32,772 nucleotides of DNA, taken from the NCBI GenBank assembly GCA_001714685.2, contig MDTP02000070.1:1-32772 (forward strand), given 5' to 3'. This DNA comes from Methanosarcina sp. Ant1 (GTDB lineage: Archaea; Halobacteriota; Methanosarcinia; Methanosarcinales; Methanosarcinaceae). The notes below the pieces were generated by a model, which saw only the letters and a program-made list of their open reading frames with translations, did not search any database and had not been told where the DNA came from. Positions 7,793-21,029 of this stretch are shown here, in pieces; positions within the stretch are counted from its first letter, which is position 1, and the number at the start of each line of letters is the position of its first letter. The position numbers and the translations under genes were made by a program.

Positions 7793-10354
7793 ATGAAAAA
7801 ATCAATAATAACTTTCAGTGAACTCTTGGTTCTATTTTTGCTTATAGTCTTATCGATAGCGATAGTAGGTGTCGTTCTGGAAAATGTTACAAACCAGAAT
7901 GAGAATTCCCCAAAGATTGGACTTGCGCCAGAAAACCCCGAATTTGTCAAATACCATAACAACAAAATTTACACTCAAGCTGCGCCTTCCCAGGATGGAC
8001 ATAAAGCAGGTTTTGTACCCGCGCCTGTGGACCTTAATTATCTTAGCAATATTTCCACAGCAGAAGTATCTGCTCCAGCTTACAATGACATGCAGGATGT
8101 ACAAGCTGTGAGTACGGTCTCCAGTACTCGATCCGAATTATCTGCTCCAGCTTACTATGACCTGCGAACACTACAAAAGGTAACGACTGTGAAAGACCAG
8201 GGTAGCGCAGGAGCCTGCTGGGCATTTGCAACCTGTGCATCTCTGGAATCATATTTAATGTCTGGAGAAAACCGGGATTTTTCAGAGAATAATATGAAAA
8301 ACCTGCTTTCTTCTGCATATCCGGAAGGTTTTGACCGCAATCCCAACGATGGGGGAAATGAATTTATATCAACTGCCTACATGGCCCGCTGGAGCGGACC
8401 AGTGGCCGAAAGCAGTGATCCTTATAGAGATACATCGATGTCTTCGCCCACTGGACTTTCTGTACAGAAACACGTTCAAGATGTGCTTTTTCTTCCGGAT
8501 AGGCAGGGGCCTCTGGACAATAACGAAATAAAATTGGCAGTCCAGAACTCCGGAGCGGCGTTTACCGCATTTTACTATGATAATGCCTTTTATTCCCCTA
8601 CCACATACAGCTATTACTATAACGGGCGCTCAGCATCTAATCATGCTGTAGCGATTGTGGGCTGGAATGATTCCTTTGATAGGAACAGGTTTTCCAATGT
8701 TCCACCTGGAGATGGGGCATTCATCATAAAAAATAGCTGGAGTCCAGCCTGGGGAGAAAATGGGTATTTCTATGTTTCCTATTACGACTCAAATATAGGA
8801 ACCTCTAATTTAGTTCTCACGGCTGAAAGCCCTAATAATTATAAATCCATCTACCAGTATGACCCACTCGGATGGATCCAGAGCGTGGGATACCGTAACC
8901 ACGTTGCCTGGTGTGCAAACATCTTTACTTCAAAATCCGATGAAGCCCTCAAAGCCGTGAGTTTCTATACAACAGACTCAAACTGCAAATATGACATCTA
9001 TATTTATACTAACCCGGGGTCCAATCCCATAAGTCAAGCAGGCCCTATTCTATCAAAGAGCGGGACAAGCCTTGCTGCAGGCTACCACACAATCCCCCTG
9101 GATCCCGGAGTTCCACTCAAGACAGGTCAAAAGTTCTCCGTCGTTCTGAAGCTTACAACTCCTGAATACAATTTCCCGATTGCAATAGAAATGCCGTACT
9201 CAGGCTATAGTAGTAAAGCAACAGCCCATGCAGGAGAGAGCTTTATCAGTTCTGACGGGAATACCTGGACAGACATAACTACATATGACTCAAATACAAA
9301 TGTATGCATCAAGGCCTTTACCGCTCCAGGAAATGTGCGTCCTGCAGCAAGCTTTTCTGCAACCCCAACCTCAGGGAATGTACCATTGACCGTCGCCTTT
9401 ACTGACACAAGTACAGGAACGCCTACTTCATGGAGTTGGAGTTTTGGAGACAAAACATCTTCAACAGAGAAGAACCCTGTACACACATACAGTACAGCCG
9501 GAAAATACACTGTAACCTTAACAGTAAGGAATGCAGCGGGTAGTAATGCGGTAACTAAATCCAGCTATATAAATGTCGGAGCCCTTCCGAAAGCACCTAC
9601 TGCTGCTTTTTCGGCATCTTCTACTTCTGGAAATGCACCTTTGAGGGTTCAGTTTACTGACACGAGTACAGGAACTCCCACTTCATGGAATTGGAGTTTT
9701 GGAGACGGGACATCTTCAACAATCAAGAGTCCAACACATACTTACTCAACAGCTGGGAACTACACTGCAGTACTTACAGTAAGCAATGCTGCAGGTAGTA
9801 ATACGGCAACAAAATCCACTTATATAAAAGTGGCAGCAGCTACACAAAAACCGGTTGCAAACTTCAGTAGCAATATTACCTCCGGAAATTCGCCTCTGAA
9901 TGTCTTATTTACTGACACAAGTACAGGAACACCTACTTCATGGAGTTGGAGATTTGGAGACGGAACATCTTCAACAGCCAAGAATCCTGTGCACAAATAC
10001 AGTAAAGCAGGAAAATACACTGTTAGTTTAACCGTAAGGAATGCGGCCGGAAGTAATATGGTAACAAGGTCGAGCTATATAAATGTTGGAGCCCTCATGA
10101 AGGCTCAGCCCGCTGCTTTTTCTGCATCTCCCACCTCTGGGAATGCACCTTTGAAGGTTCAGTTTACTGACGCAAGTACAGGATCACCCACTTCATGGAG
10201 GTGGAGTTTTGGTGACCGAACATCTTCAACAACCAAGAACCCTGTACACACATACAGTAAAACAGGAAAATACACTGTAACCTTAACAATAAGGAATGCA
10301 GCGGGCAGCAATGTGGTAACTAAATCCAGCTATATAACTGTCGGGCCCGCCTGA
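7793..10354 (+). CDS. Secreted papain-like (C1) cysteine protease with lectin-like and PKD domains
   Basis: The 853-residue product starts with an N-terminal membrane/signal segment (residues 10-29), so the rest is extracellular. A C1 papain-type domain spans about 117-345, with nucleophile Cys142 in GACWAFA, His284 in SNHAVAIVGW and Asn314 in KNSWSPAWGENGY; the catalytic set is complete. Residues ~350-510 resemble the lectin-like domain that follows C1 peptidases in clostridial surface proteins. Four PKD domains follow (starts near 518, 602, 688 and 771), each with [12 protein letters not shown] and a W.FGD core. GGAAG lies 8 bases before the ATG. The gene ends in a TGA followed by a decayed fifth PKD domain, so the C-terminus is probably truncated. 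It likely acts on or at the S-layer; the substrate is unknown. Confidence 0.9.
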   Translation: MKKSIITFSELLVLFLLIVLSIAIVGVVLENVTNQNENSPKIGLAPENPEFVKYHNNKIYTQAAPSQDGHKAGFVPAPVDLNYLSNISTAEVSAPAYNDMQDVQAVSTVSSTRSELSAPAYYDLRTLQKVTTVKDQGSAGACWAFATCASLESYLMSGENRDFSENNMKNLLSSAYPEGFDRNPNDGGNEFISTAYMARWSGPVAESSDPYRDTSMSSPTGLSVQKHVQDVLFLPDRQGPLDNNEIKLAVQNSGAAFTAFYYDNAFYSPTTYSYYYNGRSASNHAVAIVGWNDSFDRNRFSNVPPGDGAFIIKNSWSPAWGENGYFYVSYYDSNIGTSNLVLTAESPNNYKSIYQYDPLGWIQSVGYRNHVAWCANIFTSKSDEALKAVSFYTTDSNCKYDIYIYTNPGSNPISQAGPILSKSGTSLAAGYHTIPLDPGVPLKTGQKFSVVLKLTTPEYNFPIAIEMPYSGYSSKATAHAGESFISSDGNTWTDITTYDSNTNVCIKAFTAPGNVRPAASFSATPTSGNVPLTVAFTDTSTGTPTSWSWSFGDKTSSTEKNPVHTYSTAGKYTVTLTVRNAAGSNAVTKSSYINVGALPKAPTAAFSASSTSGNAPLRVQFTDTSTGTPTSWNWSFGDGTSSTIKSPTHTYSTAGNYTAVLTVSNAAGSNTATKSTYIKVAAATQKPVANFSSNITSGNSPLNVLFTDTSTGTPTSWSWRFGDGTSSTAKNPVHKYSKAGKYTVSLTVRNAAGSNMVTRSSYINVGALMKAQPAAFSASPTSGNAPLKVQFTDASTGSPTSWRWSFGDRTSSTTKNPVHTYSKTGKYTVTLTIRNAAGSNVVTKSSYITVGPA

Positions 10355-10675: not shown

Positions 10676-10767
10676 AAAATTTTTTAGTGTAGGTATATAC
10701 AGAGTTGAGTCGTTTTCAGTTACAGGAACAATAATAATAGAGAGATGTAGCCTTTCTAAGTCACTAA

Positions 10768-10898
10768 GAGCCTATCCGAAAAGTGGTTACCTGCTGTAAC
10801 TTTTACAATACGCAATATGCAAAACCTGAACGGATACTTTGATATTATAGACCTATTATGACTTTTCAACATGCATTACTGACTTTTCGGATAGGCTC
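10768..10898. mobile_element. IS5-like MITE with TAA target duplication
   Basis: 131 bp bounded by perfect 17-bp inverted repeats, GAGCCTATCCGAAAAGT at the left and its complement at the right. The flanking triplets are TAA on both sides (10765-10767 and 10899-10901), matching the TNA duplication made by IS1031-group IS5 elements. The interior has no ORF. The family link rests on duplication size and the adjacent transposase-like relic. Confidence 0.75.
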
Positions 10899-10982
10899 TA
10901 AAGCGCTTAATTTTACTCCTTTTACTTTCTTGTAGCCATCGTAATCGATGTTTCCCCTTTTTAGCAGAATTGCGAGGAACAT
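10899..10982 (-). pseudogene. Transposase relic (possible IS5 family)
   Basis: On the minus strand, 28 codons read MFLAILLKRGNIDYDGYKKV and then KGVKLSAL, running straight into the MITE at 10898. The DYDGYKKVKG segment resembles the catalytic-core region of IS5-type transposases around their second strand. The fragment is too short for certainty. No further transposase sequence is in frame upstream. Confidence 0.4.
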
Positions 10983-11282
10983 CTTCTCAGGTACAACGTG
11001 TATTAATCACATACAAAATTCCATTCATTAACTTTCGCAAATCTGAACAACGTCTTCCTGTATGTAGTTTGTGGAGGAAGAAGGCGTTCTATGGAGCTCA
11101 ATAGAATGTCACCAATTTCACGGAATGACATGAAACTAAATTTATAATTTTAATATTATATTGTTTATTTGATCAGCTCCATGAATAGAATGCCCTATAA
11201 CTTTTCTAAGACAGTCAAGTTAATATTCGATTAATAACAATGTAGAAAGTCAAGTAAAAATTTATAGAAGGTGGCTTTTAAC
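10902..11282. other. Intergenic region upstream of the pilin-like gene
   Basis: Apart from the transposase relic, this holds an interrupted inverted repeat (11083-11098 against 11175-11194) around an AT-rich TATA-like stretch at about 11140-11162, the likely promoter of the pilin-like pair. Confidence 0.45.
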
Positions 11283-11780
11283 GTGGAGGGCAAAAAGTGC
11301 AGGGCACTTGGCGAAGACTGCCAGGCAGTTTCAGAAGTAGTAGGGCAGGTGCTCATGATTGCCATAGTTGTGTTAGCTTTCTCTTCAGTAGCCGTTGTTA
11401 TATTTTCGGATTTGGTAGTAAATCCTCCTCATACGCCGCATACAGACCTGCAGGCGAACCTGCAACCAAGTAACAGCAATAATACCAGTTACACATTATG
11501 TGTACTCCATACTGGCGGCGAGGCTATAGACCTTAAAAATGCTAAAATTGCTTATTTAAACGCCAGTAGACAAACGGATTATTTTAACAACCTAGAGGAT
11601 GTAAGCTTTTCTCGAGAAGGAAATGAGTCTGAAAATGGAAATTTGATGTTAGGCGACTTTATAAAATTTGACATTCCAAGAAATAACTTAACATTTACGG
11701 AGTATGGCACTATTGATATGTATTTTGTGTACACGCCATCTCAACAGGTAATACAGAAATTTACGTTATGTAAAATGTAA
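11283..11780 (+). CDS. Archaeal type IV pilin-like protein
   Basis: About 165 residues. The N-terminus has a short charged leader followed by QAVSEVVGQVLMIAIVVLAF and continuing hydrophobic residues. This is the class III signal peptide/pilin H-domain pattern of archaeal type IV pilins, which a PibD-like peptidase would cleave just before the hydrophobic helix. The rest is a Ser/Asn-rich soluble domain with likely N-glycosylation sequons (NNTS, NESE, NLTF) and two late cysteines. I chose the GTG at 11283 because AGGTG lies about 9 bases upstream; an earlier GTG at 11271 would add four residues but has no spaced ribosome binding site. A gene with a similar N-terminus starts 38 bases downstream, implying an operon. 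Exact pilin class is uncertain. Confidence 0.75.
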   Translation: MEGKKCRALGEDCQAVSEVVGQVLMIAIVVLAFSSVAVVIFSDLVVNPPHTPHTDLQANLQPSNSNNTSYTLCVLHTGGEAIDLKNAKIAYLNASRQTDYFNNLEDVSFSREGNESENGNLMLGDFIKFDIPRNNLTFTEYGTIDMYFVYTPSQQVIQKFTLCKM

Positions 11781-11818
11781 TAATTAGACAAGATAATCGA
11801 AATAAATAAAGTTCCGCT

Positions 11819-14431
11819 ATGAAAATCAGAGAGAGCCGAAACAAAGAGAAGGCCAGAAAGGACCTATTCAGCTCAGAATCAGCAGCAGCAACAGTGATTG
11901 CAGCAGTACTACTCTTGAGTATCATATTTACCATATTTGCAGTGGTAAGGATTGCATATGTTCCAGAATGGAAAAATGATGCCGAACAATTGCATATGAG
12001 TGAAGTTCAGAGAGATATGACAGAACTCAAATCAACTGTAGATATGATTGCATTAAAGGCAGATATGGTTGCTCTTCTTAAGGATTCAAACTCGAATTCC
12101 TCACCTGATTTTTCCTTGACTGTCCCGATTAGTATGGGAGGTGGAGAAATACCTATTCTCGAACCTTCAAAATCAAGCGGGACACTTTCAGTAAATACAG
12201 AACCTTGCAACATAATCATTAAAGGAACCCCAATTAACGGCACGCCTCAAACCCGGGATCAAAAATGTGGAGGCATTACCTACTATTCTAACAATAGACA
12301 ATATGCGGACCAAGTCTTCAGATATGAAAACGGAGCCTTGATTCTTAAGCAGGGCAATAGATCATTGATGAGACAATCTCCATCATTCCGTATAGAAAGT
12401 AACCCAACTAATAAAAGTAACTATACTGTGTTGATCCAAGAAATCAAAATATCAGGAAATCCTGACACTATTTCTTCAGATACTGATACTTCTTTGAGAC
12501 TGACGGGGCTTAACTCCAATACTACTCCATACGTAGAAAATTTTTATTCTTTTAGTTGCACGATTATCACCAGATATCCAGATGCCTGGAAGTGTTACCT
12601 CAACGATACCGCAAAGAAAGCAGGACTTATAGATTCCAAATTTACACTTGAAAATAATACCTCAGAAAATGGTCTATACGAAGTATATTTTAATCTTAGC
12701 AACAATTTCTATACGCTCAATATGAGCGAATCGGTTATAAAAGCAGAATTGGGAGTTGGAAGCAATTTCAATTATATCAGTGAGGGAACTACTAAAATTA
12801 AATGGGATAATCCGGCTGACATAATTTATGGAACAGCATTAAACAACACTCAATTGAATGCAACTGCTTGGAATGGTCTTACGAATTTAACATCACAAGG
12901 AGCCTTCGTCTATACTCCAGCATCAGGAATTGTATTGAGTGTAGGTACACAGACATTGCATGTGGATTTCACACCTGCTGATGTTGCAAACTACACTACA
13001 GTATCAAAGGATGTTACAATCAATGTCATGAAAGTGACTCCAACAATTACATGGAGTAGTCCTGCAGGCATAATCTATGGAACAGCATTGAACAGCACTC
13101 AGTTGAATGCAACTGCTTGGAATGGTCTTACGAATTTAACATCACAAGGAACATTTGTATATACTCCAGCATCAGGAACTACACTGAGTGCAGGCACACA
13201 GACATTGCATGTGGATTTCACACCTGCTGATACTGCAAACTACAACATAACATCAAAGGATGTTACAATCAATGTCATGAAAGTGACTCCAACAATTACA
13301 TGGAGTAGTCCTGCAGGCATAATCTATGGAACAGCATTGAACAGCACTCAGTTGAATGCAACTGCTTGGAATGGTCTTACGAATTTAACATCACAAGGAA
13401 CCTTCGTCTATACTCCAGCATCAGGAACTAAACTGAGTACAGGCACACAGACATTGCATGTTGAGTTCAAACCCACAGATACTGCAAACTACAACACAGC
13501 ATCAAAGGATGTTACAATCAATGTCCTGCTAAAAGCCTATGCATATATTACGAACTACAACAGCAACACTGTATCTGTGATTGACACATCAAACAACACT
13601 GTTATAGCCACGGTAGATGTAAGAAACAATCCTCACGGAGTTGTAGTTAACCCGGCGGGAACAAAGGTATATGTGACGAACGAAGAAGACAAAACTGTCT
13701 CTGTAATTGACACAGCCACAAACACTGTTACAGCCACGGTGAATGTAGGAAAACAGCCTTACGGAGTCGCAGTCAACCCGACGGGAACAAAAGTATATGT
13801 GGCTAATATAGTTGACAGCACTGTCTCTGTGATTAACACGACCACAAACACTGTTACAGCCACTTTAACTGTAGGAGACAATCCTTATGGAGTTGCAGTT
13901 GACCCAGCGGGAACAAAGGTATATGTGACGAACAACCGCAGAAATACTGTCTCTGTAATTGACACAGCCACAAACACTGTTACAGCCACTTTAACTGTAG
14001 GAAGACGGCCTTACGGAGTTACAGTCAACTCAGCGGGGACAAAAGTATATGTGGCGAATGAGTACGATGGCACTGTCTCTGTGATTGACACTGCCACAAA
14101 CAAGGTTACAGCCACTGTGACTGTAGGATACGCTCCTTACGGAGTTGCAGTAACACCGGATGGATCAAGGGTATATGTGGTGAACTTTTGGGACTCCACT
14201 GTCTCTGTAATTGACACAGCCACAAACACTGTTACAGCCACTTTAACTGTAGGAGGTGATCCTTATGGAGTTGCAGTTGACCCAGCGGGAACAAAGGTTT
14301 ATGTGGCGAACAACAAAGACAGAACTATCTCTGTAATTGACATAGCCACAAACACAGTTATAACCACTGTGACTGTAGGAGACAAACCTATCGCCTTCGG
14401 GCAGTTTATAGGTTCGCCCCCAGCAAAATAA
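11819..14431 (+). CDS. Pilin-like N-terminus fused to Ig-like repeats and a YVTN beta-propeller
   Basis: The 870-residue product begins with a charged leader and the hydrophobic segment SAAATVIAAVLLLSIIFTIF (residues ~21-48), resembling a class III signal/pilin helix. A unique Asn/Ser-rich domain spans ~50-323. Three Ig-like repeats of 83 residues follow (starts near 324, 405 and 488), each with IIYGTALN.TQLNATAWNGL and ending in DVTINV. Residues ~570-870 contain seven YVTN repeats (VSVIDTATNTVTATLTVG... PYGVAV.PAGTKVYV.N), enough for one complete propeller. The second and third Ig repeats are nearly identical in DNA, so they arose or were homogenised recently. Likely a surface adhesin or S-layer-associated protein made with the upstream pilin-like protein. 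No clear ribosome binding site precedes the ATG. A PKD-like remnant follows the stop in frame. Confidence 0.85.
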   Translation: MKIRESRNKEKARKDLFSSESAAATVIAAVLLLSIIFTIFAVVRIAYVPEWKNDAEQLHMSEVQRDMTELKSTVDMIALKADMVALLKDSNSNSSPDFSLTVPISMGGGEIPILEPSKSSGTLSVNTEPCNIIIKGTPINGTPQTRDQKCGGITYYSNNRQYADQVFRYENGALILKQGNRSLMRQSPSFRIESNPTNKSNYTVLIQEIKISGNPDTISSDTDTSLRLTGLNSNTTPYVENFYSFSCTIITRYPDAWKCYLNDTAKKAGLIDSKFTLENNTSENGLYEVYFNLSNNFYTLNMSESVIKAELGVGSNFNYISEGTTKIKWDNPADIIYGTALNNTQLNATAWNGLTNLTSQGAFVYTPASGIVLSVGTQTLHVDFTPADVANYTTVSKDVTINVMKVTPTITWSSPAGIIYGTALNSTQLNATAWNGLTNLTSQGTFVYTPASGTTLSAGTQTLHVDFTPADTANYNITSKDVTINVMKVTPTITWSSPAGIIYGTALNSTQLNATAWNGLTNLTSQGTFVYTPASGTKLSTGTQTLHVEFKPTDTANYNTASKDVTINVLLKAYAYITNYNSNTVSVIDTSNNTVIATVDVRNNPHGVVVNPAGTKVYVTNEEDKTVSVIDTATNTVTATVNVGKQPYGVAVNPTGTKVYVANIVDSTVSVINTTTNTVTATLTVGDNPYGVAVDPAGTKVYVTNNRRNTVSVIDTATNTVTATLTVGRRPYGVTVNSAGTKVYVANEYDGTVSVIDTATNKVTATVTVGYAPYGVAVTPDGSRVYVVNFWDSTVSVIDTATNTVTATLTVGGDPYGVAVDPAGTKVYVANNKDRTISVIDIATNTVITTVTVGDKPIAFGQFIGSPPAK

Positions 14432-14612: not shown

Positions 14613-15346
14613 ATGAGAATGCCTGAAAAATACACCACTTCTTACCCTGCTAGAAGAGTATATTCAGATGGCAGGGCTGAAGACACTGAAGTATTGCTTG
14701 CAAAGGAATGCCCTGTTAAACTGTTTCTCGACGGAAAAAATTTTACTACACTTTTTGCCTCTCCACTTGAACTGAAAGAGCTTGCAGTCGGGCACCTGAT
14801 TACAGAAGGAGCGGTCAATTTCAGAGAGATTATAGAAATCGAGGTAAAGGACGACGAAATTCACGTCCGGACTCAAAATGAAAATCAGCTCTCTCAAGGA
14901 AAAGGGTCGGCTTCACAGGTTTTCGTAGATTCTGACACTATTTTTGATCTAGAAGCCCTTTTGCAGGTACAAATCACCTTGAATCTGAGATATACAGGCT
15001 TACCAGAGGGACTCATCTTGAGGCCCTTATAGATGGAAAAGGAAAACTTGCAGTTCAGATTGTCGATGTAGGCAGACATAACGCAGTAGACAAGATAGTA
15101 GGAGCTGCCTTTCTTCAAGGGCTCGACATCTCACAGCTCTATATGCTTTCCACTGGCAGGCAGCCTGCATACATGGTTACAAAAGCCGCACGGGCAGGAA
15201 TTCCCCTTATTGCCACCAAAGCCATGCCCTTTGACTCCGGAGTTGAGGCTGCAAAAAAAACAAACGTATGCCTTGTAGGGCAGCTCAGAAAAGAAGCGAT
15301 GCTCATCTTTGCCAATGAATGGCGGGTCAGATTTAACAAAAATTGA
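14613..15346 (+). pseudogene. fdhD: FdhD-like formate dehydrogenase accessory protein, frameshifted
   Basis: FdhD passes sulfur to, and inserts, the molybdenum/tungsten cofactor of formate dehydrogenases. The N-terminal frame (14613-15032) gives YPARRVYSDGRAEDTEVLLA through SPLELKELAVGHLITEGAV. The C-terminal part lies in another frame and includes IVDVGRHNAVDKI, MLSTGRQPAYMVTKAARAGI, PLIATKAMPFDSGVEAA and CLVGQLRKEAML. The frames join if one A is restored near 14970 (CAAATCAC to CAAAATCAC), giving about 244 residues, close to the family length. The ATG at 14619 has better AGGA spacing than 14613. The CxxC loop of E. coli FdhD is absent. A sequencing error in the A run cannot be excluded. No formate dehydrogenase gene is in the window. 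Confidence 0.85.
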
Positions 15347-20235: not shown

Positions 20236-20351
20236 CCCGCCTTAACTCAGTGGTAGAGTGCGCGGCTGTAGTTCGGCTCGTGCGGGAAAATTTACCCGTA
20301 CATTTCTGCGCAGGCACCGCGATGTCCCCGGTTCGAGTCTGGGAGGCGGGA
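20236..20351 (+). tRNA. tRNA-Tyr (GTA) with a 44-base intron
   Basis: The acceptor stem CCCGCCT pairs with AGGCGGG, followed by discriminator A; C1-G72 is characteristic of archaeal tRNA-Tyr. The D arm (ACTC/GAGT), anticodon stem CGCGG/CCGCG (20261-20265 with 20317-20321) and T arm CCCGG-TTCGAGT-CTGGG are all present. The anticodon GTA lies at 20268-20270. An intron at about 20272-20315 interrupts the loop after position 37, the canonical archaeal site. CCA is not encoded. The intron can form a helix with GTGCGGG/CCCGTAC, consistent with a splicing-endonuclease motif. Confidence 0.95.
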
Positions 20352-20479: not shown

Positions 20480-20552
20480 GTCCGGATAGTGTAGAGGCCT
20501 ATCATGGAGCCCTGTCGAGGCTCCGACTCGGGTTCGAATCCCGGTCCGGGCG
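20480..20552 (+). tRNA. tRNA-Asp (GTC)
   Basis: 73 bases. The acceptor GTCCGGA pairs with TCCGGGC (one G-U), followed by discriminator G. The anticodon stem GGAGCC/GGCTCC encloses the loop CTGTCGA with anticodon GTC, and the T arm is CTCGGG-TTCGAAT-CCCGG. There is no intron and no encoded CCA. It follows tRNA-Tyr by about 130 bases but has its own TATA box. Confidence 0.96.
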
Positions 20553-21029
20553 CTTTATTTTTTCTCTTTTGTAACTGTGCAGAATTATTAATTATGAAGC
20601 CTATAAATTAGGATTATGTCGTTTTCTAACCCTTAATTTCACTTTTCTGCTTTATTTTTGCTCAACCTTAAGCTTTCAGCCCAATTTTAACTCCTTTCTT
20701 TTTTGAACTTATTCTGCTCTAATTCAACTGTGAATTCTATTGGTTTTAAACATTTTTAGACCCGGCTTATTCTATTCTCTACTTTATTCTGCCATTATTA
20801 GACCCAGCTATTTCTATTATTTCCTTTCATCGACCAGTGTCAGAGCCAGCTTATTCTATTATTTCCTTTCATCGACCGGTATCGGATCCAGCTTACTACA
20901 TCCCCCTTTTAATAGACAAGTGTCAGCCTTCTATGCCTTGAAACTCAGCTTTAAGGTACCGAGGGAAAAGAAATTATGTAAGAGAAAACTGCATAAAAAC
21001 TAGAGAATGCAAAAGTGAGAGAATACAAA
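20553..21029. other. Intergenic region with 42-bp tandem repeats
   Basis: T-rich DNA dominated by four degenerate 42-bp repeats (20759-20926). The 87-codon frame crossing them begins at TTG without a ribosome binding site and merely translates the repeats, so I do not call it a gene. Confidence 0.55.
20759..20926. repeat. Four degenerate 42-bp tandem repeats
   Basis: Units begin GACCCGGC, GACCCAGC, GAGCCAGC and GATCCAGC at 20759, 20801, 20843 and 20885. The two central copies share TTCTATTATTTCCTTTCATC. The outer copies are more divergent, as in an ageing array. Confidence 0.8.

Follow-up and report, generated by a model that had tools for sequence, protein, structure and literature searches.

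Organization of the locus

The window, i.e., the whole stretch of 32,772 nucleotides that was analyzed, corresponds to contig C70 of a Methanosarcina genome that comprises 4.29 Mb in 342 contigs. Two adjacent genes were found on its forward strand. ORF1 (11283..11780) starts with GTG and is predicted to encode a short-form archaeal type IV pilin (Pilin_N) of 165 aa, and ORF2 (11819..14431) is predicted to encode a modular pilin-like protein of 870 aa composed of a DUF7289 stem, three Ig-like repeats and a seven-bladed YVTN propeller. An earlier sequence-only reading of this DNA had described two adjacent genes 38 bases apart, and this is the gap between the end of ORF1 at 11780 and the beginning of ORF2 at 11819. 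The mechanical ORF of ORF1 extends from 11271 to 11780; the start at 11283 was favored because it matches the conserved VEGKK start in relatives.

Upstream of the two genes, the window contains a gene (7793-10354) for an 853-aa surface protein with a papain-like protease, a lectin-like domain and four PKD repeats. The sequence-only reading had pointed to a papain-like protease just upstream; the gene is real, but it was rejected as a component of the pilin locus because approximately 70 related loci were without any match to it. Between the protease gene and ORF1, a MITE-like element of 133 bp was found (10767-10899). Its inverted repeats are perfect over 18 bp (AGAGCCTATCCGAAAAGT); a genome-wide count of the arm gave 30 occurrences, and the reversed control gave 0. 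On the other side, fdhD (14613-15346) is interrupted, with its halves in different frames and a shift near 14975. Relatives carry an intact fdhD of approximately 245 codons, and the frameshift in the window could be either a mutation or a sequencing error. The EPSP synthase gene lies at the left end of the window; in loci L047 and L147, a further Pilin_N/DUF7289 cluster was found to adjoin this gene. Rfam detected a 116-base tRNA at 20236-20351, which is longer than usual and perhaps intron-bearing; it is absent from the ARAGORN list (bacterial code), where the sole tRNA is a tRNA-Asp at 20480-20553.

The partner pilin ORF1

ORF1 scored 64.7 bits (E = 1.4e-17) against the Pfam model Pilin_N (PF07790), which is above the curated cut-off of 25.2, and the profile of its family matched the solved archaeal pilins 8fj5, 9myg, and 8gi2. 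By these profile matches, its membership of the archaeal type IV pilin family is clear. The ORF1 tree grouped the window with pilins of Methanosarcina sp. fen_51 and bog_70 (93/83). Altogether three Pilin_N genes were found in the genome of the window.

Archaeal prepilin peptidases require G, A, or S at position -1 and a charged residue at position -2 (PMC4371748). ORF1 failed this rule, as its sequence QA|VSEV has A at -1 and Q at -2; several ORF1 relatives have R at -2 (RA|VSEV). Only 67 of the 137 ORF1 family members satisfied the simple rule near the helix, which means that the rule does not define the family, and ORF1 is still assigned to Pilin_N. Its cleavage by the charged-(-2) rule appears less certain.

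The DUF7289 stem of ORF2

The pilin-like stem of ORF2 comprises residues 1-315 (11819..12763, forward strand). This part had been taken for a unique domain in the sequence-only reading, but it is a member of the DUF7289 family (PF23960), against which residues 1-324 alone scored 39.8 bits (cut-off 27), and all 50 of the 50 aligned stem relatives matched the same model (E ≤ 0.01). The stem was present in 28 of 31 Methanosarcina genomes (24 of 24 when the good ones are counted) and, at the level of the order, in 155 of 186; in a phylum-wide sample of 393 genomes, 306 had the Pfam DUF7289 family. The genome of the window has only one DUF7289 gene, which in the ORF2 tree grouped with those of fen_51 and bog_70 (100/96), so that the ORF1 and ORF2 trees give a concordant sister group. 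No paper on DUF7289 as a carrier domain was found in the literature searched, and the domain is still annotated as unknown.

The AlphaFold2 model of the stem, built from 50 sequences (pLDDT 86.6, pTM 0.81), contained helices at residues 20-46 and 50-88 with a break at the conserved P49, followed by a beta-rich domain of approximately 230 residues. Residues 20-46 (11876..11956, forward strand) form the first half of the predicted alpha1 helix and are mostly hydrophobic. The predicted layout resembles that of a pilin, in which a long bent alpha1 helix precedes a beta-rich head. The bent helix over residues 20-88 and the beta-rich head were predicted with good confidence, but the head was without a match when the predicted stem was compared with solved structures by Foldseek (E ≤ 0.001), and a DUF7289 profile search of solved structures matched none. 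Profile-profile comparison of DUF7289 and Pilin_N aligned the two over 35 N-terminal columns only (E 2.7e-4, probability 42%).

Directly before the hydrophobic helix, the simple rule gave a candidate prepilin peptidase site between S21 and A22 (ES|AAAT), which is the arrangement of a class III type N-terminus. Of 123 members of the ORF2 family, 110 had a charged -2 residue together with G, A, or S at -1, and cleavage of ORF2 is plausible from its sequence. Hence, of the class III signal-like helix claimed for both proteins in the sequence-only reading, the helix itself was recovered in both, with a candidate site in ORF2 but without a charged -2 residue in ORF1. The broader claim that both proteins are pilin-like held, with the Pilin_N match of ORF1 and the DUF7289 stem, hydrophobic helix and candidate cleavage site of ORF2. 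The PF04021 class III signal model had no match in the genome of the window; this result is not decisive because PF04021 represents a different signal family.

Ig-like repeats and propeller

Three Ig-like repeats of 83 residues, which probably act as a spacer, were located at residues 326-574 of ORF2 (12794..13540, forward strand) by their spacing and by Ig-type Pfam matches. Their anchors at residues 335, 418, and 501 are spaced by exactly 83, in agreement with the repeat length given in the sequence-only reading, and the repeats showed 75-86% amino-acid identity and 83-90% DNA identity to each other. The AlphaFold2 confidence for this region was low because only one sequence was available.

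The repeats are followed by a YVTN beta-propeller at residues 574-870 (13538..14428, forward strand). TIGR02276 matched seven stretches of ORF2 (E = 6.3e-96), and the seven YVTN-type blades start at residues 576, 618, 660, 702, 744, 786, and 828 with a spacing of exactly 42. Seven YVTN repeats, enough to close a propeller, had been counted before, and the same number was obtained here; the AlphaFold2 model is a closed ring of 28 strands spanning residues 574-860, mostly with pLDDT 88-96. Every feature that the sequence-only reading had counted was thereby confirmed. The archaeal surface layer protein structure 1L0Q was the closest match to the propeller both in sequence (phmmer E 1.9e-81) and in structure (Foldseek E 1.7e-34, 54% identity, 1.2 A rmsd), and the seven repeats are predicted to form a closed propeller like that of 1L0Q. 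No PilY1-type family was detected on ORF2 in Pfam or NCBIfam.

The Ig-propeller part matched 15 places in the genome of the window, ORF2 itself included, and in the related genome G023 another surface protein was found to contain an Ig-like repeat and a propeller linked in the same order. The genus therefore possesses a donor cassette. A separate gene for a YVTN propeller with an apparent signal peptide (L049, 6081-6827) was observed in fen_51, approximately 1.4 kb downstream of the DUF7289 gene.

Gene order in relatives and pilus machinery

In relatives, the gene order was found to be an ATPase gene (T2SSE with PilB3_C), a T2SSF platform protein gene, one or more Pilin_N genes and one or more DUF7289 genes, and this operon was seen in Methanolobus, ANME-2, and Methanosarcina loci; in the Methanosarcina loci, fdhD often comes next after DUF7289. 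Conservation of the gene pair, for which the sequence-only reading had proposed a search in other Methanosarcinales, was evident, as 41 of the 42 DUF7289 genes in the Methanosarcina loci, and 56 of the 69 in the named loci, had a Pilin_N gene upstream of them within the same gene run; the two sets have genomes in common. Judged by sequence similarity and gene order, Pilin_N and DUF7289 are the predicted pilin part of a PilB3-like type IV pilus operon conserved across the Methanosarcinales.

The genes for the pilus ATPase and platform protein, adjacent to the pair in relatives, are on another contig in the genome of the window. Contig C4 encodes a T2SSF protein and an ATPase with 75 and 87% identity, respectively, to those of genome G007, beside a PilA-like pilin (AVSPVIGVILMVAITVILAA), and contig C78 encodes one A24 prepilin peptidase. 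The location of the pair apart from the machinery, together with the single DUF7289 gene and the three Pilin_N genes, suggests that the system may be reduced. The two-gene form was also found in fen_51 and bog_70, in both without the propeller fusion. What the sequence-only reading had put forward as a candidate undescribed system is a pilus operon of a known type in reduced form.

Modules on DUF7289 and Pilin_N proteins

A whole-protein search of 238 genomes of the class found only the window to span residues 1-870, and no other fusion of a pilin-like protein to a propeller was detected in these genomes among the best three candidates scored per genome. Likewise, no propeller was seen on approximately 18 long DUF7289 frames read from the 393 phylum genomes, five of which were scanned with Pfam. 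Some of these frames were DUF7289-DUF7305 fusions and others were open frames running upstream of the domain; DUF7289-DUF7305 fusions were present in L191, L198, L200, and L201 from other lineages of the phylum.

The C-terminal part following the stem differed between relatives. The stem ends at once without any module in fen_51 and bog_70, some stems (e.g., L051) carry an extension of approximately 190 residues with a weak CARDB match, and PKD repeats were found on the stem in L055 and L067 and together with this extension in L085. A remnant of the usual C-terminal extension was searched for in the window, and none was found. Partner Pilin_N proteins with lectin-like Laminin_G_3 domains, some of them also with PKD, were detected in Methanolobus and other Methanosarcinales. 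Pilin_N proteins of pilus operons with one to four Laminin_G_3 copies were observed in L076 (2727-5870), L082 (3965-5974), and L084 (4033-5997), and such Laminin_G_3-bearing proteins are candidate archaeal pilus adhesins. If DUF7289 is accepted as a pilin module, ORF2 contains a pilin module and a non-pilus module in one open frame, as a modular pilin does. The Ig-propeller architecture on a DUF7289 stem appears to be undescribed; what is new here is this graft and, alongside it, the way in which archaeal pilin carriers bear interchangeable modules.

Discussion

We consider it fairly probable that ORF2 is an archaeal modular minor pilin that is cleaved and co-assembled with ORF1 in a PilB3-like pilus or a short pseudopilus, with the propeller on display; for ORF2 we infer cleavage, assembly, tip position, and ligand binding. 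DUF7289 would be the carrier, with its N-terminal helix inserted in the membrane, and an A24-type prepilin peptidase would cleave ORF2. Together with its partner ORF1, ORF2 would then enter a PilB3-like type IV pilus or a short pseudopilus, the filament being assembled by the ATPase and platform protein whose genes lie on another contig. Within ORF2, the distal propeller would be the displayed effector, with the Ig-like repeats acting as a spacer, and would most likely mediate adhesion, whether to other cells, to surfaces or to polymers. Methanosarcina has many secreted YVTN proteins, and the propeller cassette was probably recruited from among them through domain shuffling; the stem that received it bears different modules, or no module at all, in relatives.

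An unlikely alternative is that ORF2 is a membrane-anchored surface protein, in which the pilin-like helix acts as a signal anchor only and the propeller is held at the cell surface or the S-layer without any filament. Other YVTN proteins of Methanosarcina are surface or S-layer associated (1L0Q), the Ig-propeller protein of the relative L173 has an N-terminal segment with an apparent membrane helix, and the pilus machinery of the genome lies on a different contig, all of which would be compatible with such an anchor. However, the stem is homologous to proteins of pilus operons across the order and not to general anchors, and the candidate prepilin site recurs throughout most of its family (110 of 123 members). 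Lower still is the probability that the fusion arose recently by accident, is functionally neutral or already decaying, and belongs to a lineage on its way to losing this pilus system, as might be suggested by the absence of the second DUF7289 gene, the long pilin and the upstream trio of other species, which leaves one DUF7289 gene, as well as by the frameshift in the neighboring fdhD and the MITE-like element just upstream. Against decay, the frame of 870 codons is uninterrupted, none of the seven blades is damaged or shortened, and the machinery has been retained in the genome; moreover, the reduced two-gene form is common to fen_51 and bog_70, which indicates that the reduction is not brand new.

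That an assembly artefact had attached the repeats of some other surface gene to the pilin locus was judged very unlikely. Propeller and Ig repeats are common in the genome and the assembly is fragmented into 342 contigs, but the other genomic copies show at most about 66% protein identity, so that no near-identical donor for a false join is available, and both flanks are syntenic with relatives (with the pilin gene to the left and fdhD and hisB to the right), so that an artefact would need two in-frame misjoins. Least credible of all, and only barely so, is that the propeller is an enzyme or a cofactor-binding module, e.g., lactonase- or cytochrome-like, placed on the stem; Lactonase and Cytochrom_D1 models did match, but the best matches were the YVTN repeat model and the S-layer propeller 1L0Q.

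Methanosarcina forms aggregates and exchanges electrons with partner cells. A propeller or lectin carried by a pilus is plausible as an adhesin of this genus, and the DUF7289/Pilin_N loci offer a direct way to test the roles of archaeal minor pilins. A tentative generalization, possible but short of probable, is a general display system of euryarchaeal type IV pili, in which unrelated modules (PKD, lectin, CARDB-like, DUF7305, and Ig-propeller) on two pilin carriers, Pilin_N and DUF7289, are swapped between species; in the present case, with the propeller fused directly to the carrier, one polypeptide would do the job of the bacterial minor pilins and PilY1 together.

Among archaeal proteins, the seven-bladed propeller of ORF2 has its counterpart in 1L0Q, a YVTN/PKD surface layer protein in which the propeller is paired with PKD domains, whereas in ORF2 it is paired with a pilin-like stem. 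The DUF7289-DUF7305 proteins of other lineages of the phylum share with ORF2 the DUF7289 stem and a large C-terminal module, which is DUF7305 in those proteins and a propeller in ORF2. The predicted minor pilin of euryarchaeal type IV pili, arCOG02911, was proposed to form an ancestral four-component system with an ATPase, a TadC-like protein and a PilA pilin (PMC4858521). DUF7289 is probably the same family as arCOG02911, matched by description only: arCOG02911 adjoins the genes for the ATPase, the TadC-like protein and a PilA-family pilin, is duplicated, and is an all-beta, pilin-like protein of approximately 250-550 aa. Since the stem family is known and widespread and arCOG02911 fits its description, the locus does not represent an undescribed system; ORF2 with its 870 aa nevertheless exceeds the described range and differs from arCOG02911 by its propeller.

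Among bacterial systems, the tip adhesin PilC/PilY1 of type IV pili is also a beta-propeller protein that has been proposed to be displayed at the pilus tip. Rather than being a pilin itself, PilY1 is borne by a minor-pilin complex (PMC8179133), whereas the propeller of ORF2 belongs to another family and is covalently fused to a pilin-like stem. The closest parallel is offered by PilB and PilC of Streptococcus sanguinis, which are pilins with grafted adhesive modules, in PilC an Ig-like module and, after it, a lectin (PMC8179133, PMC9934059). In these proteins, as in ORF2, an effector module is grafted behind the pilin module, and their modules vary freely between species; this parallel is direct, and ORF2 was for this reason taken as a modular minor pilin with an adhesive propeller. 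In contrast to PilB and PilC, ORF2 is archaeal, its stem is DUF7289 and not a bacterial pilin, and its effector is a YVTN propeller following three Ig-like repeats. The 2021 survey of modular pilins is about bacteria in its main text, in which the word "archaea" is absent (PMC8179133). Grafting of modules onto pilins has thus been surveyed and tested in bacteria, and the loci described here suggest an equivalent strategy in archaea.
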